Source of the DNA: Halichondria panicea
Taxonomy: Eukaryota > Porifera > Demospongiae > Suberitida > Halichondriidae
Direction of reading: 5' to 3'
Length of the DNA stretch: 64,000 nt
NCBI RefSeq assembly: GCF_963675165.1
Contig: NC_087378.1
Span: 248,001-312,000 of the forward strand
Shown here: positions 73-50,033 of the stretch, one piece after another
Layout of the letters: each line of letters begins with the position of its first letter
Numbering within the stretch: position 1 is the stretch's first letter
Made by a program: the position numbers and the translations under genes
Notes under the pieces: model-generated
Told to the model about the DNA's origin: nothing
Seen by the model: the letters and a program-made list of their open reading frames with translations, nothing else
The model's database searches: none

Positions 73-1301
73 ATCTCTTCTCAAAGATAGCCCAGCTTCA
101 GTCAGACACACTATCAGATCAACGCACGTCGCCCACCCCCCACACGACCCCTGAACCCGGCGGACATAGCCCGCTCTCTTCAGGGAATAGCTCTCGTGCC
201 AGGTCATCAGAGGACCTCCTCGATGGCTCCCCTGGCTCAAGAAGACGAACTGCTAGTACTGGAAAACGCTCCAACGGACATGATCACAAGATGCTGACAG
301 TGAGCAAGTCTATTGGCATGCTGCATCACGGATCGGAGCGACATCACCATAGAGACGAGCGACATCACCATAGAGACGAGAGCCATCGTGGGAGCTCGTC
401 CAGAACACAATTCAAGCGTGTACAAAGTGGGTCTTCAATTTCAAGCTCTCAGAGGTCCATTCACGTTCCAATGAACCGCTCTGTTTCTCCACCAGCTAGT
501 ATCGGATACGATGAGGGAAGACGTACTTCCCCTCCTCCACCCACATCCAAACCACCACCCCTTCCGAGAGAAGTTAAGAGATTGAATAGAGGCAATCAGA
601 ATCCTCGTTGGCCGGCTAATGCCAAGACTGACTCTGTGTCTAGTGACGACTCTGATCACAGTCGCAGTGATCGGCATCGTAGCTCACGACCAGCTAACGA
701 TTCTGACCCCAGGCATCGTCAAGCAAAATCTAACAGCACGTCTGATCATATCTACGAGAACAGGAAAGCCGACGCACCACAGTACTTCCCACAAGCACAC
801 CCCAATCATGTCGATGGCCCAGTGTACGTGAATGGTAGTCAAGAGAGAGCAAAGTCATATGCTAGAAATAGGCCGGTTAATCTGTCCAGTCTGTCCAAGG
901 AAAGGAACCCACGGCCGAGCATGATGCCCTCTCCCCCACGAGATGACCACCCTCTGGATAATGTGGTCAACGACGCCGCGCATTCTCAACGAAAACCTGC
1001 TCATCCGGGACAAAAGAAGCACATACAACCCACCAACTTGTCGAGTTATCCCTGGCATCAAGCGCATGCACGAAAGCAGCCTGGTGCAGGCAATCTCACG
1101 TCGTCTAGAAGAAGAAAAGACTTGACTGAAAACTCAGAACTGATTCAACGTGGGAATGACATTATTAAAAAGGACATGGACGACTTCCATTCCCATTCTG
1201 ATCTATCGTCTACGCACTCCAGTGGTAAGGCTCCTCCTCTCTCCCCCTCCACACACACACTCACGTTACCTGAAGAATCTGGATGCGAAACATTTGTTTG
1301 A
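73..1301 (+). CDS. GoLoco-motif protein, C-terminal part (5' end outside window)
   Basis: Long open exon entered through a clear acceptor (acacaacag at 64-72). The first residues, SKIAQLQSDTLSDQR, match the GoLoco (G-alpha-i/o binding) motif, ending in the diagnostic Asp-Gln-Arg triad. GoLoco motifs in GPSM/LGN/Pins, RGS12/14 and Rap1GAP bind GDP-loaded G-alpha and inhibit nucleotide release. The remaining ~390 residues are Ser/Arg/His-rich and probably disordered, with a short HHHRDE repeat (about 340-380) and proline stretches of SH3-ligand type (SPPPPTSKPPPLP, about 527-570). If read straight through, the protein ends in ETFV, which fits a class I PDZ ligand. A possible donor at 1225 (ggtaag) could splice to a different tail. 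The upstream domains are not visible, so assignment to the Pins/GPSM family is only a suggestion. Confidence 0.65.
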
Positions 1302-1828
1302 TTTGATCGTACGCACGTGCGTGCATGTCCATTTTTTGAAATCATTAATTTTTCTTTTTTCTACACTGACTATTCGTATCACTGGCAATTTCATACACGA
1401 TATGTTGTTTTGTTGTTTTGTACATGTATAGATCATTTCACAAGTATAGCCAATCATTCTGTACTTGGATGGACACTCACACTCCTAGCAACTGTTTTTT
1501 TTTTTTTTACCATGATTGTTTTTCTTTTATGCCTGTAGATTTAAAAAGTGATCATCCCTGGTCATGTGTTTATTGATCAGAATTATTTATACTTGTCTAA
1601 TACATGTTTCATTTTAACTCAAATTAATGTGATGACAAAGTTGAATAGGTATTATTATAAACACTGGATTATAGATGATTTGGCAAGGAGTGTTTATTTG
1701 ACTTATGAAAATAGGGAAAGGATCATCTTTATAAGAAATAGCAAACGCTCTTCATAATGATAATCATTATTCATAAGTTCTGTTAACACTCTTTACCACA
1801 TACATAATTATTACAACAACAAAAAACT
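1302..1828. other. Intergenic: 3'UTR of the GoLoco gene and MAEA upstream region
   Basis: AT-rich, with no credible coding sequence. It contains a T-run at 1495-1509 and a small palindrome, ATAATGAT-A-ATCATTAT, near 1753-1770. MAEA transcription presumably starts near the right edge. No clear TATA box was seen. Confidence 0.5.
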
Positions 1829-5161
<3,333 letters not shown>

Positions 5162-10564: not shown

Positions 10565-11114
10565 AACTGTGTGTGTGTGTGTGTGTTGTGTGCATTATTG
10601 TCTATGCAAGCCGCGGCTTGATTTCAATTCATAAGAATGAATATCATAACTGGCTGTGCGCGCAGTGAATGATGAAAACCACTAATAAGATAGAATGTTA
10701 CTGTGGAATATAAATAGTCAAGCTATTTTATTACTGAGTAAGCTAGATGCGATGCCTCACTCAGAATCCCCTCCGAGCTCGCAGCTCTGTCGACAGGGTC
10801 GAGGGTCGAGCTGATGGAACGTGCCGTTTAGCGTAAACATAGATTCGGTGCCTCGCTCACGTACCTGTAAGCCTCCTCGCATGCACGGAGCTTGTACAAA
10901 GGCCGTCTATTTTTGTTTTTGTTTTGTCTGGTTCTGAGACTTTCTCTAATTTTTGTCAGCTTCAGGTGTTTCAATAAATGTATTACAATTTCTGAACAAT
11001 CTGACGAGACAGGAAGGAATACATGCACAAGCAGGTACATACATACAGTGTATGAGTATACAAAGACCAAGACAGACAGAACTAGTGATTTGTATGATGG
11101 GTGGGTGTGGTGAG
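10565..11114. other. Convergent intergenic region KCTD9 / beta-TrCP
   Basis: Starts with a short GT run (10568-10586) in the KCTD9 3' end. The segment 10740-10890 is more GC- and CpG-rich (gcctcactcag, gcctcgctcacg, cctcgcatgcac) than its surroundings, which suggests an old repeat fragment. The rest is probably the 3'UTR of the minus-strand gene. No coding sequence was seen. Confidence 0.4.
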
Positions 11115-14016
11115 CTACGACACTGTTCTCGTACTGCTATCTGATTGGTCAGTTTCCATGGGGGCAGGTGGACCTTCCGGGTCCAGGAAGTCCCAGATAA
11201 GAATGGTATCGTCATGAGAGCTGCTCACTATTTGGAAGTCATCAAACTGAAGTCTGAACACTCGACCAGTGTGCTCTTGCTGTGAGGGGTGTGTGTGTGT
11301 GAGATGTGTGTGTGTGGAGGGGGTGTGAGGTGTGAGTGGAGGGAGTGGGGAGTTAAGGTAAGTAGAAGGTATACACACACACATACATGTAGCCTACAGA
11401 CGGACACAATGATAACCTCACCACGAGTGTTCTGAGACAGATGGCGTCTGCAGGAGTGCGTGGGTCCAGTGCAGCCTGGAAGTCCCACACCTTGATGGCA
11501 CTGGAGGGGCAGTAAAATAATGTCATGTAGTAATGAGAATAATTATTTGAATTTTCCACAATCTCACTAGACTAGTAAAATTGAAGCACACAAAAAACAA
11601 CATAAACTGCCCTTTAGATACATAAACATTTCCCCTTCCCAGCTAAAAATCTTGTATGTACTACTTTGCCTGGCTCACCCGTCATAAGCTCCACTGACAA
11701 TCCTCTTGTCATCGAAGCGTATGCACCTGACCAAGTCGTCGTGGCCCTCTAACAGCCGCAGACACGCCCCCAACTCAATGTCCCATATCCTGATGGTATT
11801 GTCGGATGACCCACTCACTACGTGGTTGCCACGGTACTGTAGACAAGCTATCCCTCTTCTGTGTCCATGAAGAGTCCGCACAAACTCACTAGTAGACGTC
11901 CGCCAAACCTGAGTTTTGAATTTGAATTCGAAAAGTTTATCCCAAAAGGAAAGGGTTGGGGGGCAGCAAGGTGAGCCAACCAACACATGGCCACATTAGA
12001 CCACTAGTAACAGTACAGGTACATACCTTGATGGTTCTGTCTCCAGAGGCAGACACAATATATCGGTCATCAAAGTCCACCACATTGACTGCTGCCCTGT
12101 GCCCCACGAGAACTCTCCTCAGAACAATGTCCTTGGTACTGCGCATGTCCCACACGGCAATGGTACGATCCTGTGGGGAGAGAGAGCAGTGTTTAATCAG
12201 CAACAAGAAACTGACTTATAAGACGATAATTATAGCTATTCAGTATCTTACCTTTGAGCAGGTGACCATTGTCTTGTTGCAGAACCTCAGATGGAGCACA
12301 GCCTCGCAATGATGGACCAGAGTGTTGAGCATTGTACCACTGGCCACATCCCACACACTGTACACAATACACACACATTGACCACCTATACACTTGAGGT
12401 CCAGCTACCCTCACCGTATGGTTGAATCACTGGACCCCGTGACAACAACGTCCTCATCATACTGGAGACAGAGTACAGAGCCAGTGTGGCCTTGAAGGAT
12501 ACGAATACACTCCAGAGTATGCCTGTTCCACACCTACGAGGTAAGAGGGGGGAGATCACATGACTGAGAGTATGGATTATCAGCTCCACAAGAGAGATAA
12601 CATATCCTACCAACTACATGTACTGTGTGTGCTACTAAGGCAGCACAGTATTATATATAAATTATAACAGTATAATTGTACTGGTGGGTACGGGGACGTG
12701 GGCTGTGGGGAGCATTTTTGTGGGCATTGAACCAGGGAGAGTACACACACACAAGGTTATAAAACAAAGGAAGTGCTAATCAAGAAAGGAAGTGCTAATC
12801 AAGAAAGGAGACTTTGAGGCTGTGTACTCACCTTGATGGTGTTGTCTCTGAGCCCACTCACGATCTTCTTGTCATCGTACTGCAGACAATAGACTCCCTT
12901 GCTGTTCTCACTGTGACACTCAATCCGGGTGAGAGAATGGTGTCCATTCTTCCAGTTAGCCACCATCCTCTGAAAGGTAGGGAGGGCACAATCAAACACA
13001 GAGTTTGCTGTTAACTAATGTACATGCACAATGCAAAGTTACATTTTGCATACCGTGACTTGATATAATTACGCATAATTATTTGTAATCATATAAACTG
13101 ATCTATTTATGCATATTGGATACTGACATGCGTATAATTATAATTATATCCGCCCACTCCTTAGCAAGCTTCTCAGGCCAAAACTTAATTGGCAGACTCC
13201 CCTGACTACCACTGACCCCTAACCATCACTGACCCCTAACCACTGACTATCTGATATTATAGACCTCATAGACCTCACCTCTATGTCCTTGATAATGGCA
13301 GGGTATAGCTTGCGGTAGTACTGGTGGGCCAACCCCTCTGATTGGGGTACATGACGAAACAAGTACTTGGACCACCCCCTGCGCTCAGATAGACCCTTGT
13401 ATACGGTATCTGTGGCAACCTTCATCTCGATAATTTTCTTCCACAGCAGTCCGTCCTCGACAACACGAAACCATTCAGTGCACACCAGCTCAGCTCTACA
13501 CAGAGACTTGGCATCGAGATAGGATAGGATCTTGTAGGCTATGTGGTGAAGGCCCTTGCCTACAATGGGGGGTAGATGATTGCTATCAGTACTATATAAT
13601 AGAGCCTGTTGTTAGGGGTAGTAGCGTGTACTGCAATGACATACTTGTAGTAATGAATTGCTCGGACAATATAATGTGATCAACAGATATTCCACACACA
13701 ACCACTTACTAGGCAGGACGGTGATGAAGTCACGTTGGAGCATGGGCATTAGAATGGTGTACAGATGCTCGTGTTGGTTGAAGCTCATGCGTGCAATCAC
13801 TTGCTCCACAAACTCTGTCTGTCGTGTTTGGGCCCACGTCTCAAACATCCGTAGACACATCTCCGTCTCTTGGTCGTGTTGTTCCCGTGGTGACATGGAG
13901 AACTGTGAAGAGTCCTCGTCCCCATCACGTCCCACCATCATCTCCACGCTCTCTCGCTTGAGCTCCTCAAGGTCCAGGTTGAACTGAAGTGCGTTGCCTT
14001 CAGATGATAACGCCAT
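11115..14016 (-). CDS. BTRC: Beta-TrCP (FBXW1/Slimb), F-box/WD40 substrate receptor of SCF ubiquitin ligase
   Basis: Nine exons on the complement: 13710-14016, 13279-13559, 12832-12969, 12415-12533, 12252-12357, 12027-12170, 11679-11908, 11422-11500 and 11115-11279. They sum to 522 aa in consistent phase. The N-terminal D (dimerisation) domain includes [11 protein letters not shown] and [11 protein letters not shown]. An F-box follows ([30 protein letters not shown]), then the WD40 propeller with repeats such as [60 protein letters not shown] and [19 protein letters not shown]. This is the receptor that recognises DSG-type phosphodegrons (beta-catenin, I-kappa-B, PDCD4 in vertebrates). The C-terminal tail after the last blade is short (about 18 residues). 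The gene diverges from PBDC1. Confidence 0.97.
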
Positions 14017-15733: not shown

Positions 15734-18686
15734 ATGGAGTTTAAGACGCTGACACTAATTCTGTTGTTCCTGTGTGCAGGGAAAGGGCTCGGGCAAACTA
15801 ATACTAGTAATAGTAAGTGAATTGTCAGTGCCATGCCAGTGGCCTAAGCTAGCTAACCATAATAATTATTAGATACATATATGCTATGCTATTCTCCCTG
15901 TACACAATAGGTACCACTGGTGCTCCAACTACACAAGTACCAACAACTACAATACCGTCAACCACCGAGACAACTACCACTGTGCCAACTACCATCGAGC
16001 CAGCTGCCACTGAGCCGCCAGCAACCACTGGACCAGCTACCAATGTTACTGAGCTAGCTACCAATGTTACTGAGCTAGCAACCACTGGACCAGCTACCAC
16101 TGTTCCTGAGCCGCCAGCAACCACTGGACCAGCTACCACTGTTAACGTTACTGAGCTAGCTACCATTGTTACTGAGCTAGCAACCACTGGACCAACTACC
16201 ACTGTTACTGAGCTAGCTACCACTGTTACTGAGCTAGCTACCACTGTTACTGAGCTAGCTACCACTGTTACTGAGCTAGCTACCACTGGACCAGCTACCA
16301 CTGTTACTGAGCTAGCAACCACTGGACCAGCTACCACTGTTACTGAGCTAGCAACCACTGGACCAGCTACCACTGAGCCAGCTGGAGGATCTGGGCGTCC
16401 TTCGCAAGAGTTTGTGGTGGCCATGAGCATCATCGGTACCTTCCTTGTCGTCTTCCTTCTCCTTATTTGCGGCCTCAGCCTGATCCTCTACATAATCTGT
16501 AAAAGTGAGTGTGTCTATTCTTGCAGTTTAGTCACTCTGTGTGCGTGTGTGTACGTGCAGGGCGTGTGTCTCGTCTCAAGGATGAGGTTGTGTGGGTGGA
16601 CACTGAACATTGTGAGCAGTCCTGTAATGTTGTGCTCACTGATGTCAAAGAAACACCAGCCACACCCACATCACCAGTGAAGGAAGGAAAGAACGAGAGC
16701 GACGCTGCACTCACTGCCTGCACATTTGGCTTTGAAGGGGAGATCGTAAAGAGTGAGGAGATGAGCATGGTACGTCATTACCCTGTGTGAGAGTGTGGCT
16801 ATCATGTGTATCGTTTCACAGAGCAAATTCAACGAAGAAGTTTGAGTACTAAACATTCAAAAACTAGACTATTTATGTATTTCCTTGCCATTATTTACTC
16901 AATATACAGATGTTTATATAGATGTATACTTCCTGTTTTCATTGAAACGTTCCCTATAAATACATCTCTCAGTAGCAACAGTAGCCAGCTAGCTAGTGTG
17001 TGGTATGTAGCTCTGTGGAATTAATGGCTACTGTCACAATTAATGGAGTAAGTTTTCCCCTCGAGGCCATTTACATCGTTGGTGCTCTCTGTGGTCTGAT
17101 TGTTATCTTCCTCTTCTTTATTTCCTGCCTCTCGTGCATCCTCTGTGCCCTGCCGCGACGTAAGCCACACACACCACACACACCACACTCACCACCCACT
17201 CCTCCTCTTGCAGGATCAGAGAGCCCCCGGGACAAGACAGAACCTCTAGTCCTCAAGTGGGCTGACACTGAACCTGGAAACGTGGAACTGCTGGCAATGA
17301 GAACTCTCTCTGAGACAATATTAGAGCCAGCTACGACCACAGCGGACGAAACAAAGAGTGAGAATAGCGATGAGGAGGTCACTGCTGGGACATTTGGCTT
17401 TCAGGGAGAGATTGTCAAGAACCAGGAGATAGTAACGGTATTGTGTAATGCTGTTTTGGTGTGCTAACTATCTTGAGTGTGAGTAGGTGGAGTGCAACGA
17501 TGAAGACACAGATACAAAGCAACAAGTTGAAGAAAGCCAGCCAGCGACTAGTGTGAGTCTATTAGCCTGCTAGCTGAGTGAGTGTGTGTGTGGGTGGGTA
17601 TTGCCACTAATGCTTGACAAACATTCTATGTCGCAGAACAAGCTTTAAATTGTTGATTTGAAGTGTTTACTTTCTGTAATGTAATCATTCATTTTAGTAC
17701 TCTACATTAGTGATTGCTTTTATTGCTGCATGGACTGCTGCCACTGTTTGCATTCACTAACAGCCTTGTTCATATAATGCAGACCTTTGGTGTCCTCTCT
17801 GACAAGCAACCTCTCGGCAGTGTCCAGAAGGTGCATGAACTCACTACATTAATAGCTAACACTGTCTGTATTACTGTTCATATTATTGTGCAGCCTGACC
17901 TTGTCCTGAGTACACCTGTGGTGATAGTCCTGGAAGAGGCCACACCCACTAAGCCCCCCTCTGATGACAAGCCCACACTTGACGAGCACACCACCCTCAT
18001 GTCTGATACCATTGAACCCCATGAACCCATTGTAGATACTGCCAAGTAAGCCTTCACAATTAACGTACTGTCCGTGTGTTTAAAGTCATTACTGTCCTTT
18101 ATTGCTATTCTTTTATGCTCACAAGTTGCTGACATTGGCATATTATTCTTTTCAAATTGCCTATTATTCTTTTCAAATCGCCACATTATTCCTCCAAAGC
18201 ACAACATAGACCCCATGTTGTCGCACAAGTAACATTAAACTATAAATAATGGCCACACGACTCCACCTATTAGCACTAATGTAGAATGCCAAGGAGATAT
18301 AATCATCCACCAGTACTTCCATCAGGCCTACAAATGTTTATACTATAATTCGTACTGACCTGTTTTTCCAAAACCTACCTTAATTGTTATATAAAGGTGC
18401 CTAGTATGCCAGCATAATTCTCACCCAAAAAATGTGCCTATTATGCTTAAAATTATGCCAGCATAATCTACTAACCCCTATCCCTTGTCCATTTCCCCAT
18501 GCAAGGCCTACTGCAGCCAACAAGTCAACAGAAGAGATCACTAGTAATAGTACAGCTGCTGACACTGGCAAGAGCCTCGAACAACCCAACAGCCCAAACA
18601 TATTGTTCATGGACGATATTGACAAAGCTTTGGGGATGAGCCCATTGGACATGCAGTTGATGGACATCCCGGGAACTTCCCTCTAG
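15734..18686 (+). CDS. Mucin-like single-pass membrane protein with duplicated transmembrane/tail cassette
   Basis: Exons 15734-15812 (signal peptide MEFKTLTLILLFLCAGKG), 15911-16504 and 16561-16769, then shared downstream exons 17487-17552, 17783-17830, 17894-18045 and 18506-18686. All phases agree. The ectodomain is a Thr/Pro/Ala-rich stalk of short repeats built from TELATT and GPATTV, with NVT sequons, so it is probably heavily O-glycosylated. One transmembrane helix (SIIGTFLVVFLLLICGLSL) is followed by a cytoplasmic region with FGFEGEIVKSEE. The tail exons are acidic and end in DDIDKALGMSPLDMQLMD. A second transmembrane/tail cassette lies at 17024-17437 between exon 3 and the shared exons and could serve as an alternative start. 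The family is not recognised; a receptor or adhesion role is only a guess. A polyadenylation-like AATAAA lies near 18769. Confidence 0.6.
17024..17437 (+). other. Second transmembrane/cytoplasmic exon cassette (alternative N-terminus or paralogous unit)
   Basis: Two exons, 17024-17159 and 17214-17437. The first encodes MATVTINGVSFPLEAIYIVG and a membrane helix (LCGLIVIFLFFISCLSCIL) ending in basic residues; the second encodes a cytoplasmic piece. Its exon structure copies the upstream cassette exactly: a phase-1 intron directly after the membrane helix, then an exon ending in phase 0. Local sequence similarity is also visible (VVWVDTE versus VLKWADTE; FGFEGEIVKSEE versus FGFQGEIVKNQE). It lacks a signal peptide and the Thr-rich stalk, so its product would be a signal-anchor protein of short ectodomain. 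In-frame translation could begin eight codons earlier (17000). Confidence 0.55.
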
Positions 18687-18903: not shown

Positions 18904-21900
18904 TCATTCTATTGTAAAGTTAACGGTACGGCGAATTCTCCTGGCACAGGCATCACCATTAGGCCGAACCTTGAATGCATAAACTCCAGCTACCAGGTTA
19001 CCAAGGTTAGAGGGAGATGTGCCTGCAAGAGAAAAAAGTGTACGGATATTGTCACAGGGTTATATAGAAATTCAAAAATGACCATAAAATGACACTAAGT
19101 CATGTGATACTCACATGGTACATACTCTCCGACAGCCCCATTGATGGTGAGACGACACTCAGTGTCGGTGACTGGTCCAATCTCATTCCACTCTATTTGT
19201 ACGAACCCAGCTTCGTCCACGACAACCACATCCTCTTGTGCAGCATTAACAAACACCACAGAACAGTCCATGTTGAACCCTACAGGGAAAGGGGTGTGGC
19301 ATTCAGTAACTATAGAGACACACTAGCCACTCCACCTACCTAGTCGCACTTGTCTGGTTATGTTGGCAATCTCCAATCCCTGAGAATCAAAGGCAGTCAC
19401 TATGAATGTATATGGTTCTTGTCGATCCGGTGGCAGGCCAAAGAAGGTCACAGTCCTTGATGAACCTGGAGGGGGCGGGGCATGTGTTAGGGGGGGTGGT
19501 CTGAGGCTAGTGTACATGCTCACAATCTACGGGTCCAAGGGTGCCGAGTTGACACAAGGCTGAGGCAACATCACTACGCAGAGTGAAATCTACGAGCACA
19601 GAAGCGGAGGTTGGGCTGTCCAGAGTCACTCTCGGTGTGTCGTTGATGATGACTATCCCAGGGGACACTGTACATGGCAACACAGTGTGTGTGTATGGTG
19701 TGGTAGCTGGACTATGTATCAACACAGTGTGTGTATATGGTGCGGTAGCGGGACTATGTATCAACACAATGTGTGTGTATGGTGTGGTAGCGGGACTATG
19801 TATCAACACAGTGTGTGTGTATGGTGTGGTAGCGGGACTATGTATCAACACAGTGTGTGTGTATGGTGTGGTAGCGGGACTATGTATCAACACAGTGTGT
19901 GTGTATGGTGTGGTAGGGGACTATATATGTATCAACGCAGTGTGTGTGTGTGTGTGGTGTGGTAGCGGGGACTATGTACAGTGTGTGTGTGTGTGTGGTG
20001 TGGTAGCGGGACTATATATGTACAGTGTGTGTGGAAAACATGTGGGAGAAAACAATACAAGTAACTGATGGGAGGGAATTAAAATTTGTTGGTGTGTACA
20101 CAAAGAAGAAAGCCTAGCTGTTAGTCAGATGTATATGGTGTTGCCTATGTGACATGTATATACGTATATACCTTCATCATCATCAATAATAACCACTGTG
20201 GCTGTGTTGGGGGAGAGGGTGACAGGAAGACCCCCCGCGGAGACAGAGACTAAGAAGCTCTCCGTAGAGGATTCAGGGAGGTCATTCCCCACAATGGTGT
20301 ACATAGCACACTGCGTGGTAGCCCCCCCGGACACAAAGGACACAATACGATCACCACCGATGTAGTCAGAGCCATCTACAGAAAGGGATCAATCATATGT
20401 ACAAGGTGCACTCAACAACACAGCCAACTACACTGTGTAATGAGGTCAACCTACACCTACACTCACCGAGAGCAGAGCCTTGGATTGTTGATACGGTGAA
20501 GTCCAGCTGCCCTGAAAGAGGTGCTTCAGAGATGGTGAGGCACACAGGGACAACGGCCTGGGACTCCCCCTCCAACACAGAGAAACTAGGATCACTGAAT
20601 CCAACAACCGTCGCTACTATAGGAGCTGTGTGTGTGTGTGTGGGGGGGGAGGGGGCAGTCAAAGGGTGGTTATTATCTGAGCTCCACAGTGCACTTACGG
20701 TCATCATCAATGATGGTAATAGAGGCAGACTGACGGAAGAACACAACAGCTGAGTCGGTGGTTGACAGGTCAGCAAAGAACATCTCTGTTGGTTCGTTGA
20801 TTACGTCGTTGATGAGAGTGATGAACTCACAGATGAACGGTTCCGTGTTGATGGGACTAAAGGTGACCGTAACAGTCTCCGCTACGAAATCCTGGCCAGC
20901 TGGAGGACAATGGACAATACAGAGAGAGAACAGTTAATAAACAACCCATACAAAGCACATCATGTCTTAGAGCTATACACAATGGCCCCACCCACTCACC
21001 CAGCGCACTGCCCGCCCTCAGTGTGAGCGTGAGGATGACATCTCTGTTGACAACATTGTTTGTAAGGTCCACACACACCATCAAGTTAGTGGCGTCTTCG
21101 TTCTCATTGAATGTGTAGCTGAGTTGACTCAAGCCGACTGAAACAGTATTGTCTGTGAGAGGGGAGGGGTTTATACACAACAACCTAATCACCAGCTGTT
21201 ACATACCGAGCGTGTCGAGTATAGAGACAATGGCAGGTGAACCCAATGACCCCGGGAAGTCCCCACTTGTTAGTGAGATGCTGAATGTTTCAGTGCCCTC
21301 CTGTACAGTATCCTCCAAGATGGTAACCGTGGTGCACTGTCGTCTTGGCCCACTCGGAGTGAACATGAGCAGCGTGGTGAGGGGAGCATAGTCAAAGCCA
21401 GCTGAAGGGGGGGGGAGTAATAGCATTGTGTAAATTAACACAATCATAATAATACCATTTGCTGTGATGTCATTTGCTGTCACAGTGATGGTTGTGGGGG
21501 CGGTGAGTTGAGCTCCATTGACCACAATACACACACTTAAACTGCCGTCTTCTTCATTCACAGAGTATGTACTCATCTCCACAGCAATGGTGGCTGGGAG
21601 GGGATCGTCACTGATGATGGTAACCAGAACAGTCTGATCTGGTTGGCCAGTTTGTTGTAGTCGGATGGTAAACAATTCGTTAGATTCAAAGAAGGAATCA
21701 TCGATGATATCGAGAGGTAGACATATTCTAGTGGGAGAGGTGGAGGTGAAGGAGATCTCTCCAATCTTGTCCACATAGTCATCACCAGCTGCATAGGGGG
21801 CAAAGGTTATGTCGCCCACACACACACACTGACTGACTCACCTGTGGCTGTGTTGGCTACAGTATCGTATGTTGCCGTGACAGTCTGTCCAGGTGGTGGT

Positions 21901-24900
21901 AGGGTGTCGATACTTAAACACACCTCAGCACTTGGACCACCCTCTGTCAGTGACAGCTGTAGGGGACCCTCAAATGATATCAGTGGATCCACAGCACCGT
22001 CAGAAGCTGTGGGGGGTAATGTGTGGGGTAAGGGGTGTGTGTGTGGGGGGTGGTACTCACCGAATATTGTGACTGTGGAAGTGGGTGTGATTATAGAGCA
22101 CCCTCCCTGGGGGTCACTAAGGTCAACTAAGAAGCTCTCGTCAGGCTCGGCTAAATTGTCGTCAATGAATTCAACACGTGGACACTGCACATCGATGCCA
22201 AATAGAGAGGGTCCAAAGTTCACACTCACAGAGCTTGCCACATAGTCACTACCAGCTGTAGGAACGGACATAGTGTCATGTGATGTATGACAGGTATCAT
22301 GAGGTGATCAACGTACCCATGGCTGTTCCATCTCTGGTAGAGAAGACGAGACTAGTGGCTGTCGTGGTTATCCCATCGAGCTGCACACACACAGAGAAGA
22401 AACCAGCGCTTTCAGGTCCAGAGTAGCTACTCTGAATGAACTGGAAGCTACAGTCAGCGGGGGTTCCATCTGAGGGGGATGGGGGATGGGATAGTAACAG
22501 TGGATTGCAGTGCACTTGCAACAGAGAATAGCCAAACAGCACAACCGCAAATTAGATAATAATTTCTTGGCCTAATAATTATAGGCTGTATAATTATAGA
22601 GACAATAATTATATATCTCTGGGATTATATTAATAATAGGTATGGCTTAGTGAATTATGCTGTTTGGCCATTCTCTGCTGCAATTAAGTGCACTGCAGTC
22701 CACTGTACAGCTAGCCACTGCATGTAGAACAGTGTACAGAGCCTATAGTGTGCATGGTACTATCACTGTATGTTTTCTCGTGGGGTAAAACAGTTCTGCT
22801 ATAGCTATCTTGTTTCGAGAGGCTGGCCTACCATTGTCTGTGATGGTAACGACGGTTGTCTGGGGGGCCACAAACAGCGCCCCCTGGGGAGGGGGGGACA
22901 CCAACACTACAGAGAATGACTCAGTAGACTCTGAAGTAGTATCATCTAGGAGGGCCACATTGACACACATCTCAGTGGGGGAGGAGGAGTCAAACACCAA
23001 TGGGAATGAATCGGCCACAAAGTCAGAGCCAGCTGTAAAAATAAGTGTATGAGCATTAGCACAGGGAGGAGGTACACTTACCAATTGCTGATCCTGTTTC
23101 TTGTGTTGCTATAGTTATTGGTAGACTGATAGCAAGGGCTGGACCACTCACACTCACACACACACTCACAAAACTGGTTCCTTCACTCACACTATCGGCA
23201 GCCTGAGAGAAGGACACTTGTGCATCTGAGAGAAGGGGGCGGGCATTAAGAGGGTGCGATTAGATTGGGTGTGGTCTTACTGTCAGAGTTGTTGATGATT
23301 ACTGTTCCCATGGATACACCAAATGTGATTGCATTGCTGGTGCTACTTAGTTCCACTGTGAAGGTCTCGCTACTCTCCACTAGATTGTCTGGTGCTATGG
23401 CAATGTTCACACACTGTCTGACGTCAGATGAAGAGAATATCAGGAATTCATTGACACCAGTGTAGTCAGAGCCAAACACTGGAGGGAGGAGAAGGGTTAT
23501 ATAATTATAACAAGACAATTTCGGAAAATTCAACAAGAAATGCAAACGTATCTATCAAGAACACTAAAAAACCATGTGCACACAACCTTAAGGTCTTTAC
23601 CGTTTTTGAACGAAACAAAATTTAAGATGTACATGTACAAATTAAGATTCACAGCCCAAAGTTAATCTGTCTGGGATACAAGTTACATAATTGTATATCA
23701 AAACAGGACCATTAATTTTTGTAAAAATTCCTTACATGCAATATATGGTGGCTATCCCTCAAAGTGTTTATTAAAGAAAAGGTTAAAAGTTGCAAAAGTT
23801 ACGAGTTAGTCTTACGTGCAGTAGCGGTCCCGTCCATGGTAGTGAGTTGAACACCAGCTAATCCAGTCAACTGTCCTTGAGTAATGGCTGCACACACCAT
23901 CACAGACCCCTCACTCTCACTTATGATATAGTTGGCCTCCTCTAAGGAGATGGTGGCAGCTGTGGTGGGGTTGTGTTCAGTGATTGAGCATATAATAAAT
24001 TATGTAATTAAGCTACTTACATGTGTCATCATCAAGAATGGTAACTGTTCCCATGGATACACCAAGTGTGATTGCATCGCTGGTGCTACTTAGTTCCACT
24101 GTGAAGGTCTCACTACTCTCCACTAGATTGTCTGATGCTATGGCAATGTTCACACACTGTCTGACGTCAGATGAAGAGAATATCAGGAATTCAGTGACAC
24201 CAGTGTAGTCAGAGCCAGACAGTGCAGTGGCAGTTCCGTCCATGGTAGTGAGTTGAACACCAGCTAATCCAGTCAACTGTCCTTGAGTAATGGCTGCACA
24301 CACCATCACAGACCCCTCACTCTCACCTACGGTATAGTCGGCCGCCTCCAAGGAGATGGTGGCAGCTGTGGTGGGGTTGTGTTCAGTGATTGAGCATACA
24401 ATAAATTATGTAATTAAGCTACTTACATGTGTCATCATCAATAATGGTAACTGTTCCCATGGATACACCAAGTGTGATGGCATCACTGGCGCTACTTAGT
24501 TCCACTACGAAAGTCTCGCTACTCTCCACTAGATTGTCTGGTGCTATAGCAATGTTCACGCATTGTCTGGTATTGATGGATGACAGGAATTGAGCAGAGT
24601 TGACGGGAGTGTAGTCAGAGCCAGGCGCTAGAGGGGGGTGGATAGTGAGGGTATCATCACCAGCTACTCCACTTACTAGCTGTTCCAACAACACTAGAGA
24701 ACTGGAGGGGCAGGAGCACTCCAGGGTCAATTTCTCCATCAGTAATGGCTGCACACACCATCAGAGATCCACTATCCTCAGTCACACTGTACACACCCAT
24801 CTCTAGGGAGACTGTCACGGCTGTGTGTGTGTGTGGGAGGGGGAGGGGAGTGATCACTCACCTTATACCAGCAAGAGTTGACTTACTATCATCATTGAGA

Positions 24901-27900
24901 ATGGTGACTGTTGCCATTGAAGCACCCAGTGTGACATCAGGATCAGAGCTAGTCAGTTGCAGTGTGAAGGTCTCATCATTTTCTACCCGACTGTCTTGAG
25001 TGATGCTGATACCACCACACTGTGTCAGACCATTGGCAGTGAACGTGAGAGACATAGTACCCAGGAAATAGTCACTACCGGCCTCTGTAAGGGAAGGAGG
25101 GATTGTGTCAGTCGAGGTGTTTAGTGCATTGCCAGCATCCATCAACTCACCAGCTGTTCCGTCCGTGGCAGAGAGTTGAACTGACACAGTTTCAGCTGAC
25201 AACAGCTGTTCACTGGTAATGACTGCACACACCACCAGAGATCCACTATCCTCAGCAACACTGTACACATCCATCTCTAGGGAGACTGTCACGGCTGTTG
25301 TGGTGGGGTTAGTAATACTGTAGGGTCGTTTATATTGAAGTTGAACTTACTATCATCATCAACAATGGTAACTGTTCCCATGGATACACCAAATGTGATT
25401 GCATCGCTGGTGCTACTTAGTTCCACTGTGAAGGTCTCGCTACTCTCCACTAGATTGTCTGATGCTATGGCAATGTTCACACACTGTCTGACGTCAGATG
25501 AAGAGAATATCAGGACTTCAGTGACACCAGTGTAGTCAGAGCCAGACAGTGCAGTGGCAGTTCCGTCCATGGTAGTGAGTTGAACACCAGCTAATCCAGT
25601 CAACTGTCCTTGAGTAATGGCTGCACACACCATCACAGACCCCTCACTCTCACCTATGGTATAGTCGGCCAACTCCAAGGAGATGGTGGCAGCTGTGGTG
25701 GGGTTGTGTTCAGTGATTGAGCATACAATAAATTATGTAATTAAGCTACTTACATGTGTCATCATCAATAATGGTAACTGTTCCCATGGATACACCAAAT
25801 GTGATTGCATCGCTGGTGCTACTTAGTTCCACTGTGAAGGTCTCGCTACTCTCCACTAGATTGTCTGATGCTATGGCAATGTTCACACACTGTCTGACAT
25901 CAGATGAAGAGAATATCAGGACTTCAGTGACACCAGTGTAGTCAGAACCAGACAGTGCAGTGGCAGTTCCGTCCATGGTAGTGAGTTGAACACCAGCTAA
26001 TCCAGTCAACTGTCCTTGAGTAATGGCTGCACACACCATCACAGACCCCTCACTCTCACCTACAGTATAGTCGGCCAACTCCAAGGAGATGGTGGCAGCT
26101 GTGGTGGGGTTGTGTTCAGTGATTGAGCATACATAAATTATGTAATTAAGCTACTTACATGTGTCATCATCAATAATGGTAACTGTTCCCATGGATACAC
26201 CAAATGTGATTGCATCGCTGGTGCTACTTAGTTCCACTGTGAAGGTCTCGCTACTCTCCACTAGATTGTCTGATGCTATGGCAATGTTCACACACTGTCT
26301 GACGTCAGATGAAGAGAATATCAGGACTTCAGTGACACCAGTGTAGTCAGAGCCAGACAGTGCAGTGGCAGTTCCGTCCATGGTAGTGAGTTGAACACCA
26401 GCTAATCCAGTCAACTGTCCTTGAGTAATGGCTGCACACACCATCACAGACCCCTCACTCTCACCTACAGTATAGTCGGCCAACTCCAAGGAGATGGTGG
26501 CAGCTGTGGTGGGGTTGTGTTCAGTGATTGAGCATACAATAAATTATGTAATTAAGCTACTTACATGTGTCATCATCAATAATGGTAACTGTTCCCATGG
26601 ATACACCAAATGTGATTGCATCGCTGGTGCTACTTAGTTCCACTGTGAAGGTCTCGCTACTCTCCACTAGATTGTCTGATGCTATGGCAATGTTCACACA
26701 CTGTCTGACGTCAGATGAAGAGAATATCAGGACTTCAGTGACACCAGTGTAGTCAGAGCCAGACAGTGCAGTGGCAGTTCCGTCCATGGTAGCGAGTTGA
26801 ACACCAGCTAATCCAGTCAACTGTCCTTGAGTAATGGCTGCACACACCATCACAGACCCCTCACTCTCACCTACGGTATAGTCGGCCAACTCCAAGGAGA
26901 TGGTGGCAGCTGTGGTGGGGTTGTGTTCAGTGATTGAGCATACAATAAATTATGTAATTAAGCTACTTACATGTGTCATCATCAATAATGGTAACTGTTC
27001 CCATGGATACACCAAATGTGATTGCATCGCTGGTGCTACTTAGTTCCACTGTGAAGGTCTCGCTACTCTCCACTAGATTGTCTGATGCTACGGCAATGTT
27101 CACACACTGTCTGACGTCAGATGAAGAGAATATCAGGACTTCAGTGACACCAGTATAGTCAGAGCCAGACAGTGCAGTGGCAGTTCCGTCCATGGTAGTG
27201 AGTTGAACACCAGCTAATCCAGTCAACTGTCCTTGAGTAATGGCTGCACACACCATCACAGACCCCTCACTCTCACCTACGGTATAGTCGGCCAACTCCA
27301 AGGAGATGGTGGCAGCTGTGGTGGGGTTGTGTTCAGTGATTGAGCATACAATAAATTATGTAATTAAGCGACTTACTTATACGATCACCATCAAGAATAG
27401 TAACTGTTGCCATGGATACACCAAGTGTGACATCATCGCTGGTGCTACGTAGTTCTACTGTGAAGGTCTCGCTACTCTCCACTAGATTGTCTGATGCTAT
27501 GGCAATGTTCACACACTGTCTGACGTCAGATGAAGAGAATATCAGGAATTCAGTGACACCAGTGTAGTCAGAGCCAGACAGTGCAGTGGCAGTTCCGTCC
27601 ATGGTAGTGAGTTGAACACCAGCTAATCCAGTCAACTGTCCTTGAGTAATGGCTGCACACACCATCACAGACCCCTCACTCTCACCTACAGTATAGTCGG
27701 CCAACTCCAAGGAGATGGTGGCAGCTGTGGTGGGGTTGTGTTCAGTGATTGAGCATACAATAAATTATGTAATTAAGCTACTTACATGTGTCATCATCAA
27801 TAATGGTAACTGTTCCCATGGATACACCAAATGTGATTGCATCGTTGGTGCTACTTAGTTCCACTGTGAAGGTCTCGCTACTCTCCACTAGATTGTCTGA

Positions 27901-30900
27901 TGCTATGGCAATGTTCACACACTGTCTGACGTCAGATGAAGAGAATATCAGGACTTCAGTGACACCAGTGTAGTCAGAGCCAGACAGTGCAGTGGCAGTT
28001 CCGTCCATGGTAGTGAGTTGAACACCAGCTAATCCAGTCAACTGTCCTTGAGTAATGGCTGCACACACCATCACAGACCCCTCACTCTCACCTACGGTAT
28101 AGTCGGCCAACTCCAAGGAGATGGTGGCAGCTGTGGTGGGGTTGTGTTCAGTGATTGAGCATACAATAAATTATGTAATTAAGCTACTTACATGTGTCAT
28201 CATCAATAATGGTAACTGTTCCCATGGATACACCAAATGTGATTGCATCGCTGGTGCTACTTAGTTCCACTGTGAAGGTCTCGCTACTCTCCACTAGATT
28301 GTCTGATGCTATGGCAATGTTCACACACTGTCTGACGTCAGATGAAGAGAATATCAGGACTTCAGTGACACCAGTGTAGTCAGAACCAGACAGTGCAGTG
28401 GCAGTTCCGTCCATGGTAGTGAGTTGAACACCAGCTAATCCAGTCAACTGTCCTTGAGTAATGGCTGCACACACCATCACAGACCCCTCACTCTCACCTA
28501 CAGTATAGTCGGCCAACTCCAAGGAGATGGTGGCAGCTGTGGTGGGGTTGTGTTCAGTGATTGAGCATACATAAATTATGTAATTAAGCTACTTACATGT
28601 GTCATCATCAATAATGGTAACTGTTCCCATGGATACACCAAATGTGATTGCATCGCTGGTGCTACTTAGTTCCACTGTGAAGGTCTCGCTACTCTCCACT
28701 AGATTGTCTGATGCTATGGCAATGTTCACACACTGTCTGACGTCAGATGAAGAGAATATCAGGACTTCAGTGACACCAGTGTAGTCAGAGCCAGACAGTG
28801 CAGTGGCAGTTCCGTCCATGGTAGTGAGTTGAACACCAGCTAATCCAGTCAACTGTCCTTGAGTAATGGCTGCACACACCATCACAGACCCCTCACTCTC
28901 ACCTACAGTATAGTCGGCCAACTCCAAGGAGATGGTGGCAGCTGTGGTGGGGTTGTGTTCAGTGATTGAGCATACAATAAATTATGTAATTAAGCTACTT
29001 ACATGTGTCATCATCAATAATGGTAACTGTTCCCATGGATACACCAAATGTGATTGCATCGCTGGTGCTACTTAGTTCCACTGTGAAGGTCTCGCTACTC
29101 TCCACTAGATTGTCTGATGCTATGGCAATGTTCACACACTGTCTGACGTCAGATGAAGAGAATATCAGGAATTCAGTGACACCAGTGTAGTCAGAGCCAG
29201 ACAGTGCAGTGGCAGTTCCGTCCATGGTAGCGAGTTGAACACCAGCTAATCCAGTCAACTGTCCTTGAGTAATGGCTGCACACACCATCACAGACCCCTC
29301 ACTCTCACCTACGGTATAGTCGGCCAACTCCAAGGAGATGGTGGCAGCTGTGGTGGGGTTGTGTTCAGTGATTGAGCATACAATAAATTATGTAATTAAG
29401 CTACTTACATGTGTCATCATCAATAATGGTAACTGTTCCCATGGATACACCAAATGTGATTGCATCGTTGGTGCTACTTAGTTCCACTGTGAAGGTCTCG
29501 CTACTCTCCACTAGATTGTCTGATGCTATGGCAATGTTCACACACTGTCTGACGTCAGATGAAGAGAATATCAGGACTTCAGTGACACCAGTATAGTCAG
29601 AGCCAGACAGTGCAGTGGCAGTTCCGTCCATGGTAGTGAGTTGAACACCAGCTAATCCAGTCAACTGTCCTTGAGTAATGGCTGCACACACCATCACAGA
29701 CCCCTCACTCTCACCTACGGTATAGTCGGCCAACTCCAAGGAGATGGTGGCAGCTGTGGTGGGGTTGTGTTCAGTGATTGAGCATACAATAAATTATGTA
29801 ATTAAGCGACTTACTTATACGATCACCATCAAGAATAGTAACTGTTGCCATGGATACATCAAGTGTGACATCATCGCTGGTGCTACGTAGTTCCACTGTG
29901 AAGGTCTCGCTACTCTCCACTAGATTGTCTGATGCTATGGCAATGTTCACACACTGTCTGACGTCAGATGAAGAGAATATCAGAAATTGATTAACACCAG
30001 TGTAGTCAGAGCCAGACACTGGAGGGAGGAGAAGGGTTATAAAATCGGGAAGGAAGTGACAAGAGTAGTCTTACGTGCAGTGGCAGTTCCGTCCATGGTA
30101 GTGAGTTGAACACCAGCTAATTCAGCCAACTGTCCTTGAGTAATGGCTGTACACACCATCACAGACCCCTCACTCTCACCTACGGTATAGTCGGCCACCT
30201 CCAAGGAGATGGTGGCAACTGTGGTGTGATGGGGGGTAGTCAGGCATACAACACACACCATAACTTATGCAAATCAGAGTCAGTAACTACAATGGTGGCT
30301 ATTCACTCACCGTTACTATCAATAATTTCCACTGACACATCTTGTAGGGTCACCGTGACGAATGAGTCTCCAGCTGTAATGTGGCCAGTGAAGATTTCAG
30401 AGGATTCCAGTAGTTGGTCATCATTGATTGTCACCTCAACATTCTGTATTCCCGGACCACTAAACTCAATAATCTGTACCGTACCGTCGTAATCATCAGG
30501 GGCTGTAATTATAGGTATGATAGCATGAGTGGTGCTGACTCAGCAAGCTGCTGACTTACCTTCCGCTGAACCATCACGTGTGTAGAAAACAAAGTACGAG
30601 GTGAGGGGCTGCACTTGTATGGGATCAGGGAAATCTCCACTGATGCTGACTGATAATACGAGGGGACCTTCATTCTCCCGGACCCGCACAGAAGAAGCCG
30701 TGAAACCAACAGTGATCTCTGGAGGAGCAGTGAATAATTGATCATGACATAATTATATTGTAATACAGTGGAACCTCCATTAACGACCACCTCCAATTGC
30801 AAAGAGCAACCACACGCTATATAACGGCCAAGAGCTCAGGTCCGGATTGAAACTACAATGACTTCAATGTAAAGCAACCTTTCAGGAGCGACCACCTCTT

Positions 30901-31840
30901 TACTCCGCATAACGAGCAGCTTTCTAGTCGGCCCCAACTAGCTTTAGCAACGGAAAATAACCTCCAGAATTAGCAGAAAATTATTGCTGAGATAGCATTA
31001 TTTTGCACAATCGTGAAAACCTGGCTGTAGCTTGTCTCTACAGCCTTTTCAAAGCTTGTATGAGCTAAAGAAGCAGTTAGCAAAGCCCCAAGATTCCTTT
31101 GCAGCAAGAAATGACTCATAGAAAATACATAGCTGGCAATCGAAACCTCCCAAGGAAGACCACCTCTCTATAACGGCCAAAAGGCTGGTCCCCAATGGTG
31201 TCCATTTTATGAAGGTTCCACTGTACATGTTTGAACTTATTATTGACTACCTTATTATAAACGGGTACTAATTTTAGCAAATTTTAGCGAACTTGTAATT
31301 AATGCTAAATTAAGTACCGTACGGGTAGAAAATTTCGAGGTGTTTTTAATTTCGCGTTTTTCGTGGGTGGCTGCAGAACACGAAAATTAAAACCTATGGA
31401 AGGCTTCGTATACGCATGCGAGATAGTGCCACACCCTAACTCCACGAAATTTACTACCCGCGAAATTTTCCAAATAAGACAGAATATTGAATTGCACGAA
31501 AATTTACACCCTCGAAATTTTCCACCTGTACGGTACGCGCTAATAATAAAACGCAATTGATAAAAAAATATGTATGTTTTTTTTTCATATACTTTTGTAT
31601 AATGTAATGTACTTTTGAGAGTATGCTAAGCAAGCTAGCCCTTTCTTTATCTGTATCTGACTCCAAACTTTCCATTCAACCTTAAAACTCATACTTGTAC
31701 ATCTTTTGAGATATAATTATTGTGGTAATGAATTTGCTACAAATCCGCCAAAATTAGTACCCTAAAAACAGAGAAAAACCTGAAAACGCTAAAATTACTA
31801 CCCATCTATTAAGGTATTGTATACATAATGTACCATTTTC

Positions 31841-31872
<32 letters not shown>

Positions 31873-33948
31873 AGTGTTTTACCAGGGAAGCAAGAGGCAG
31901 TGAGGATGTCCTCACAGCAGTCTCCTCGCTGGAAACAGCCCTGAGAGCACGAGCAGTTGACTAGTGCCACGGAGATGACACAGTCAGTGGTGCTGCTCTC
32001 TACACAGCAGCCATCGTACACACCACGGCACAAGTCTACAGTATGTCAGACACCATGCGTAATAGTGACTCTATAGTTCCTACATCTAACCTGTAGGGAA
32101 TGCACCACTGCCACTGCCACTGCCACTCCCACTGCCCATAAGCTCTGCACACAGTGACAAAGAGTGTGAGAATGGAATGCAACACATTAAGCTCATTAGC
32201 CTTGTACCAGGCAGAGAAATGCACACACACAACAAACACTCACCACTGCAAGACAAGCCATCACCCGTGTAACCAGGCAGACACACACACTCAAAACCAA
32301 TCGCCATGTCAACACAATTGGCATTAGGGTCACAGTTACTCAGACCTTGCAAGCACTCATCAACCACTGAAATATAAGGAGGAGACCATTATTATTAGTA
32401 TGTGGCCATACTAACATAATTATATCCCTCACACCGATGCTTAAACAAACACTGACTAGCTGCTACGTACTATACTACATCGATAATTAGCACAATTATA
32501 ATATGTGCGCATGATATATATAAACTCACAGGGTCTCTCTACCGAGGTGCCCACTTCAAATATCCACACTCCTCCAACTCCAACGTTGGTGGTTGTATCA
32601 AGCTCCAGGACAGCACCCGTGTTGGAGCCAGGCAAAAAGAACATGTTGGAACCTTCCCCAATAAAACCCACGTCAGCTCTGTCCCCCCCGAATCCATTGA
32701 CCCCACCATCACTATCCCCTGTCATCCATTGTAGGAGGTTGTCTGCATACATCAGGACAGTGAAGGATCTTACTCCATCAGTGGCCACTATGCACTGGAA
32801 CGTATTTGTCTGGGGAGGAACAAGAGAGGACAATTATACTTTGCACTGCAAGTAATTGTATTTGACAAACCATGCAATACTACCACTCACTAGATCATCA
32901 TGGTTGTCTTGGTAGCCGACGTAGAACCAGGTGGCAATGAAAGCACTTGAGACAGTAGAGCTACCAAAGCCGAGGTTGGCTAGTTCGTTGACTCTGTTCA
33001 ATACTGCAAGCTCTGTAGTCTCTCGATAGAAGACATGTCCAATACTAGTTGTGTCTGCATCAGCTGAGAAGGCATAGACGGATGCTGAGGTTCCACCACT
33101 GCTGACCAACTCCAACACACCATCAGTGTGCACCTATGCATGGGATTAGGGGGTAGGGCAACACAAGAGAGGTAATATGTGCAGTGGGGGGGGGGGGGGG
33201 GGGGGATTGCAGTGCATGCATTAAAGAGGTAGTGAGTGCAGGGGGGTTAGTATGCGGGCCAGGCAGTGCAGGACAACACACAATGTGGGAGAGGTAATGG
33301 AGAGACAATCATTGCCTGGTACTGAGGTAGTACAGTGTAGGGTGCATGGTGACTGGTACAAGTGTCCACATGACAACACCATATACAGTCCAACTATCTC
33401 TGCTATGTGGGTGATCATAATTATCAATACAAACATTGGATTGCATTCTGCAAACTGAGGCTAAAGATGGAAAGCGATGCGAGCACCACTCACGCACACA
33501 CACACTACTCCCAGGCCTTCCTTTTATTGCTGATTTAGTCTAGCTGAGTATCTATCTATAGAAGGCAGCAAAAAACAAAAAGACGACATGAGGCAGCAAT
33601 CAACTTATTGTGACATGCAAGAACAGAAGAAAGAGCCTGTGTAGCCACCACACACACACACACATGCATACACACATATATACTACAGGCAATACACCAC
33701 TCACTCACACACACACACACAGAGGCTACAGATAATGCACGTACTGTAATAGTCTCCCGCTGCAGTCCTAGGAATGGAATATTGGCCGCTAAATTCACAG
33801 AAGCTGATACATCATTTCCTCGCTGCAACTCAGTGTCTCCAGAGTCGGGGCCAAATGGCAGGAACATGGGGAGAGGTATCGCCCACACAGTCTGGAGGGC
33901 CGTCAGACATAGTAACAAAACTCTCACTGACACCATAACCTCCACCAT
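18904..33948 (-). CDS. Giant secreted NIDO-EGF-SMB protein with about two dozen Calx-beta domains
   Basis: Starts at 33948 with a signal peptide (VRVLLLCLTALQTVWA; exon 33745-33948). NIDO-domain exons follow at about 32892-33133 and 32528-32815 (AFIATWFYVGYQDN, GDRADVGFIGEG). Then come one EGF-like exon (32244-32366, DPNANCVDMAIGFECVC) and a somatomedin-B-like exon (31883-32035; Cys pattern with CCVESS, CSCSQGCFQRGDCCED). Roughly 23 Calx-beta domains run from ~30720 to ~20170, each with SGSDYTG, ESSETFTVEL and IDDD-type motifs; this fold binds Ca2+ in Na/Ca exchangers and integrin beta-4. The C-terminal exons (19540-19670, 19335-19466, 19104-19280, 18904-19022) form two Cys-containing Ig/Fn3-like units and end in NFTIE. 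No membrane segment was seen. It is likely a calcium-dependent extracellular matrix or adhesion protein. Exon edges in divergent parts are approximate. Confidence 0.8.
19681..20030 (+). repeat. Minisatellite, 42-bp unit, about 7-8 copies
   Basis: The unit contains tatggtgtggtagcgggac and tatcaacacagtgtgtgtg and recurs at 42-bp spacing (tatcaacaca at 19717, 19759, 19801, 19843 and onward), degrading towards 20030. It lies in an intron of the Calx-beta gene. Open frames across it are artefacts, because 42 is a multiple of three. Confidence 0.9.
22498..22705. mobile_element. MITE-like element, about 208 bp, CAGTGGAYTGCAGTGCACTT termini
   Basis: The left end reads CAGTGGATTGCAGTGCACTT and the right end, on the complement, CAGTGGACTGCAGTGCACTT. 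The inverted arms extend about 45 bp, to near GGCCAAACAGCA/AGCCAAACAGCA. TA follows the right end and TA(A) precedes the left. It sits in a Calx-beta gene intron. It belongs to the same family as the element at 47278-47715 and the fragment at about 42398. No coding capacity. Confidence 0.8.
24021..30020 (-). repeat. Tandem array of near-identical Calx-beta exons, about 406-bp unit
   Basis: About a dozen units; successive units start at 25746, 26151, 26557, 26963, 27333, 27778, 28184, 28589, 28995, 29401 and 29771, with 24013 and 25289 at the left. Each unit is one exon of 345 bp (for example complement 26159-26503, 115 codons) plus a 61-bp intron. Both exon ends are in phase 1, so units can be gained or lost without breaking the frame. 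Two divergent units (24419-24754, 24858-25292) interrupt the array. Units at 27333 and 29771 share a different 3' intron edge (acttacttatacgatcacc) and are exactly 2,438 bp apart. Confidence 0.95.
30766..31223. mobile_element. Pogo/Tigger-like MITE, 458 bp
   Basis: Termini CAGTGGAACCTCC (left) and, on the complement, CAGTGGAACCTTC (right) are flanked by TA on both sides (30764-30765 and 31224-31225), the target duplication of Tc1/mariner-pogo transposons. The internal termini also repeat gaccacct and ataacggcc motifs. It lies in an intron of the Calx-beta gene between the SMB and first Calx-beta exons. No transposase is encoded. Confidence 0.85.
31248..31816. mobile_element. Terminal-inverted-repeat element, host of a nested MITE
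   Basis: The left end (TACCTTATTATAAACGGGTA then CTAATTTTAGC) matches the complement of the right end (TACCTTAATAGATGGGTAGT then AATTTTAGCG) over about 30 bp with a few mismatches. A second, shorter element (31315-31535) sits inside it. It is intronic and non-coding. Confidence 0.65.
31315..31535. mobile_element. Nested MITE, about 221 bp, TACCGTAC termini
   Basis: The left end TACCGTACGGGTAGAAAATT continues TCGAGG; the right end on the complement reads TACCGTACAGGTGGAAAATT and continues TCGAGG. The termini resemble those of the element at 35232-35431 (TACCGTATAGCGGG), which suggests a related family. Confidence 0.75.
33186..33205 (+). repeat. Poly-G tract (20 bp)
   Basis: An uninterrupted run of 20 G in the intron between the signal-peptide and NIDO exons of the Calx-beta gene. 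It is a likely replication or sequencing-error hotspot. Confidence 0.9.

Positions 33949-34598: not shown

Positions 34599-50033
<15,435 letters not shown>

Follow-up and report, generated by a model that had tools for sequence, protein, structure and literature searches.

The window, by which we mean the whole stretch of 64,000 nucleotides of Halichondria panicea DNA that was analysed, includes a minus-strand gene that combines a NIDO domain, an EGF domain and a long chain of Calx-beta domains (Table 1). A simple exon model of this gene extends from about 33.9 kb to about 19.0 kb; its Calx-beta part is well supported, and its first exons and last exon are uncertain. The gene end in Table 1 is taken from an open frame, the exon model itself ending at 19,007. 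Searches with Pfam profiles identified NIDO (PF06119, 8.6e-37, over the cut-off, at C2:280,549-281,085), EGF_3 (3.8e-10) and Calx-beta (PF03160), the domain of the array exons, which is matched over nearly its full length (5.6e-23, 81.7 bits, profile positions 7-119 of 119). Half-domain Calx-beta profiles, trained partly on exons of the host gene itself, found 23 second-half and 22 first-half matches in the window; every one is on the minus strand, and together they extend from 20,176 to 30,561. A 55-residue cysteine-rich piece at about 31.9-32.0 kb, considered as a Somatomedin-B domain, matched no Pfam family, and the last 164 residues of the protein matched none in a search of Pfam alone, without a Wreath model. 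The Wreath domain is a feature of sponge aggregation factors. A 42-bp tandem repeat of 8.4 copies (19,678-20,033) overlaps with the beginning of the gene's first predicted C-terminal exon.

The array domains also match the Calx-beta chains of the Na/Ca exchanger (2.8e-11), and several acidic positions are kept in the alignment, including the DDD at its end. In the exchanger, acidic residues of the Calx-beta domains serve as Ca2+ ligands. The array domains may bind Ca2+. No membrane segment was seen by eye in the model, and the host protein may be a long, secreted or matrix-type adhesion protein.

Elsewhere in the window there is a perfect CA repeat of 371.5 units (1,922-2,664), and an F-box exon (13,222-13,611, minus strand, 8.1e-12) is followed by putative WD-repeat-like pieces recognised by eye. 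An open frame at 15,853-16,680 on the plus strand has Thr/Ala-rich repeats and then, by eye, a membrane-like segment; it has no Pfam match. A tandem pair at 40,106-42,034 and 44,134-45,994 (plus strand) encodes a hydrophobic protein of 642 residues, also with no Pfam match; in the second copy the reading frame is interrupted, leaving two frames that overlap. On the strand opposite to this pair there is an SMC-type exon (34,804-35,079), and more coiled-coil pieces were seen by eye beyond the pair. A 27-bp tandem repeat (46,129-47,050, 34 copies at 98%) has open frames on both strands. Rfam gave no match within the window at gathering thresholds.

Table 1. Features of the Calx-beta array and its host gene, with positions in the window.
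Feature	Position	Strand	Basis or remark
Host gene (NIDO, EGF, about 23 Calx-beta domains, C-terminal tail)	19095-33948	minus	simple exon model and Pfam
Outlying fused unit U1	24021-24365	minus	two diverged domains between U1 and the array
Exon V1, left edge, 342 bp	25351-25692	minus	3' end and next intron unlike the array type, resembling the diverged neighbour
Exons A1-A4, each of 345 bp, separated by phase-1 introns of 60-61 bp	25754-27315	minus	exon model
Junction unit T1, a chimera with its left part of the terminal-unit type and its right part of the array type	27376-27784	minus	mismatch comparison
Exons B0-B4, 345 bp each	27786-29753	minus	exon model
Right flanking unit T2, exons of 144 and 204 bp split by a 56-bp intron	29815-30218	minus	joined halves match B4
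Block copy 1: V1, A1-A4, first part of T1	25353-27545	minus	9 mismatches in 2,193 bp at lag 2,438
Block copy 2: B0-B4, first part of T2	27791-29983	minus	9 mismatches in 2,193 bp at lag 2,438
Interval of 89 bp with the recombination junction, its sequence the same in both parental types	27457-27545	.	mismatch comparison

The exon model places eleven consecutive one-domain exons, V1 to B4, at 25,351-29,753, each of 342-348 bp and spaced 405-409 bp apart. Units are named in plus-strand order as V1, A1, A2, A3, A4, T1, B0, B1, B2, B3, B4 and T2, and U1 is a twelfth exon of the array type. The array introns are of 60-61 bp and in phase 1, and in the model all eleven exons have an open frame and end in phase 1. 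With exons of 342, 345 or 348 bp between phase-1 introns, the gain or loss of a unit preserves the reading frame. The units are very alike: only 13 of 345 exon sites vary among 10 units, and seven of the nine core introns are identical, the remaining two, six units apart, having one deletion in common. The variable sites fall in 12 codons (five changes silent, seven altering the residue), too few to judge selection. Selection on the protein is needless as a cause of this likeness, the introns being about as uniform as the exons; this uniformity indicates copying and exchange.

The array is not only repetitive from unit to unit but also at a higher order. The earlier note proposed that a block of six exons recurs at 2,438 bp, and this repeat is real: 25,353-27,545 and 27,791-29,983 differ by nine mismatches in 2,193 bp (0.41%). 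When lags of 300-4,999 were scanned over 24,001-31,000, the best was 2,438 (0.615), followed by 406 (0.576). The best lag is the sum of six successive unit lengths, which are 405, 406, 406, 406, 409 and 406 bp. A comparison of the nine non-chimeric full units, leaving out V1, T1 and T2, gave the same period, since pairs at lag 6 differ by 1, 0, 1 and 2 (mean 1.0) while lags 1-5 and 7-9 give means of 3.0-7.0; likeness between units thus peaks at an offset of six, as had been predicted. Some single pairs at lags 1 to 5 also differ by only 2, so the block signal sits in the set of pairs and not in single pairs.

Individual markers follow the same period. Exactly 2,438 bp separates the two occurrences of the 60-bp intron, of each variant at codons 39, 50 and 53, and of the terminal unit's left edge. 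Among the markers named in the earlier note, the shorter intron was recovered at 26,125 and 28,563, the motif gtagcgagttg at 26,789 and 29,227, and the motif cagaaccagac at 25,943 and 28,381, the last also occurring once on the opposite strand, at 10,926. The variant exon/intron edge was correctly spaced in the earlier note but misplaced; it lies at 27,366 and 29,804, and the positions originally given, 27,333 and 29,771, are intronic and 33 bp off. The codon 53 variant (27,148 and 29,586) is an additional marker. The extent of the block also needs revision, for although it recurs at a six-unit period, the recognisable repeat covers 5.4 units (2,193 bp) and starts at 25,353 rather than 25,746. 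A DNA search of the assembly with the block as query, in which very common words were skipped, found nine places, all of them in the host gene on C2, and none on a second contig.

The unit between the two blocks, T1, is informative about how they arose. Between 27,376 and 27,545 its only differences from the terminal unit T2 are at 27,421 and 27,456; beyond 27,456, just two positions, 27,548 and 27,690, distinguish it from B0. Its right part carries a Phe variant at codon 59 together with ACT at codon 11, a pairing present in none of ten units (the nine core units and U1), so that the parent unit, here called X, is not among them. A chimera of this type is what would be expected if the terminal unit had crossed over unequally with a unit six positions distant, and unequal homologous recombination is the likely mechanism. 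Our main reading is that six Calx-beta exons underwent a real tandem duplication within the gene, through unequal homologous recombination of misaligned, near-identical units, and we give this a probability of about 0.82.

The same junction is where an assembly error would sit. Two alleles with different array structures, joined within the identical 89-bp tract, would show the block twice; 0.41% is, from general knowledge, a size of difference possible for alleles of one individual, and one assembly is the whole basis of the analysis. Such an artefact is nevertheless unlikely, as the window has no gap (no N), further long tandem arrays in it are assembled, and the array is shorter than 5 kb in an assembly whose 39 contigs for 131 Mb suggest, without proving, reads long enough to span it. 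Two variants cross the block pattern, the codon 59 variant pairing B3 with U1 and the codon 95 variant pairing B0 with B4; they point to further exchange or to older shared variants, and suggest exchange among non-corresponding units. This could speak for single-unit copying followed by in-register gene conversion that made units six apart alike, with no block duplication, but several independent events at one lag would be required, including transfer of the 1-bp intron deletion and of the left part of the terminal unit, and we consider this very improbable. That the pattern arose by chance in a homogenised array, in units so alike that few sites are informative, is scarcely credible, since only 768 of the 362,880 orderings of the nine units reach a sum as low as that at lag 6, with the T1/T2 match left uncounted.

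A single simple event does not account for the duplication. One crossover within one template needs a lag-6 run of at least 2,438 bp, and the run of 2,193 bp falls 245 bp short of the period. The end of V1 has a donor site and an intron unlike those of the array and like those of the diverged neighbour. Either a unit was lost later at the left edge, or the donor array had an extra unit, the recombining arrays already being different. Both options need at least two past structures of the array, which lends indirect support to variation in its length. If the recombining arrays already differed, the nine mismatches are partly allelic and older than the duplication, and give no safe age. The earlier view of the history holds in its outline: the differences between units and the 2,193-bp run support a block duplication over older single-unit amplification. 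The block was duplicated, but its copying as a whole in one simple step does not hold, a second event or two arrays being needed; likewise the description "very recently" is apt relative to the other units but not as an absolute age, because the 0.41% may partly be older allelic difference.

The flanks of the array suggest how its unit originated. In the two flanking units examined a mid-domain intron interrupts the domain, of 56 bp between exons of 144 and 204 bp on the right and of 337 bp between exons of 144 and 198 bp on the left. In the fused exon B4 the two halves are joined with no base added or missing at the junction. Elsewhere in the genome many Calx-beta matches start or stop near profile position 50, and others, such as those on C5 and C15, run through the whole domain in a single frame. 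The split flanking units and the matches breaking near position 50 make loss of an ancestral intron the likelier direction, and the founder of the array probably lost its mid-domain intron.

These observations can be arranged as a model of growth in four steps. Exact loss of the mid-domain intron in one unit would have given a 345-bp one-domain exon between phase-1 introns, and this fused unit would then have been amplified singly. A crossover between the middle of the terminal unit T and that of array unit X, at a distance of six units, may have followed; it would have left units 0-4 and T in two copies, separated by a T/X chimera. The left edge would owe its difference to a further event, either a subsequent deletion or a divergence already present between the two recombining arrays. 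By the exon lengths of the model, the protein would have gained six domains of the Ca2+-binding type, or 691 residues.

The number of array units may plausibly differ between individuals, a suggestion based on one assembly. A further reading is possible but doubtful, namely that the array is a length-variable module for adhesion or self-recognition: the number of Ca2+-binding domains would differ between individuals through frequent unequal exchange of fused one-domain exons, the exact intron loss having started a recombination-prone array by giving a uniform unit of about 406 bp. Whatever the function of the array, the stages by which a multi-domain extracellular protein may lengthen can still be read at this locus, from exact intron loss through single-unit amplification to a block duplication whose junction is mapped to 89 bp. 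Should the number of domains vary within the species, the gene would make it possible to test directly whether adhesion or self-recognition depends on how long a Calx-beta chain is.

Sponge aggregation factors are described as extracellular Calx-beta proteoglycans tied to adhesion and allorecognition (PMC10815962). Calx-beta repeats are common to these factors and the host gene, which has NIDO and EGF domains as well. The relevant extract of an Amphimedon graft study reports no significant enrichment of aggregation-factor adhesion genes, which counts against the recognition reading (PMC5450542). In the extracts of two further sponge papers (PMC8242945, PMC11229196), NIDO and Calx-beta figure solely as names of domains or in two genes. 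Silicatein, a mark of demosponges, was looked for among the cysteine proteases of the genome: of 77 matches, six loci were scanned, four had an active-site motif (two of them giving one and the same protein), and all were cathepsin-like.

The genome has at least 151 Calx-beta matches, and 20 stretches around other matches were compared for repeats. A high-identity block array was found in one of the 20 and repeats of 2.1-2.2 kb at 81-82% in two; the other 17 had shorter repeats or none at the threshold. No multi-exon block repeat in these stretches has copies as similar to each other as those of the window block. A second Calx-beta gene, on contig C9 at about 5,644,800-5,655,500, has a five-domain block of about 2.44 kb in nearly four copies at 91-92% identity; the 40 kb examined there contains 22 matches to the second-half profile. 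It is likewise a higher-order Calx-beta array; by its identity it is older, and it is unmatched by the window block at the DNA level. The common block length of about 2.44 kb looks like a coincidence, and the two arrays together indicate that growth by blocks occurred more than once in this genome.

Similar arrays are known from human genes. In CR1, a receptor built from a domain array, a block of several units (seven SCRs) is described as having been duplicated whole (PMC6883348, in part). Whole-block duplication is thus common to CR1 and the window array, whereas the domain differs and CR1 has known length variants. Three copies per allele are the norm in nebulin, and its blocks are longer than those of the window array. 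The triplicate region of human nebulin is, as in the window array, a tandem block within one gene, there of eight exons, and varies in copy number (PMC9109913); nebulin, however, is a muscle protein. The window array shares several features by which these cases are recognised: consecutive exons recur in an unchanged order, corresponding units resemble each other more than other units do on average, and symmetrical exons keep the frame. No description of the window array was recognised among the matching literature listed, a partial listing. Block duplication of domain exons is already known from CR1 and nebulin, and the window case joins that kind with an unusually clear junction.
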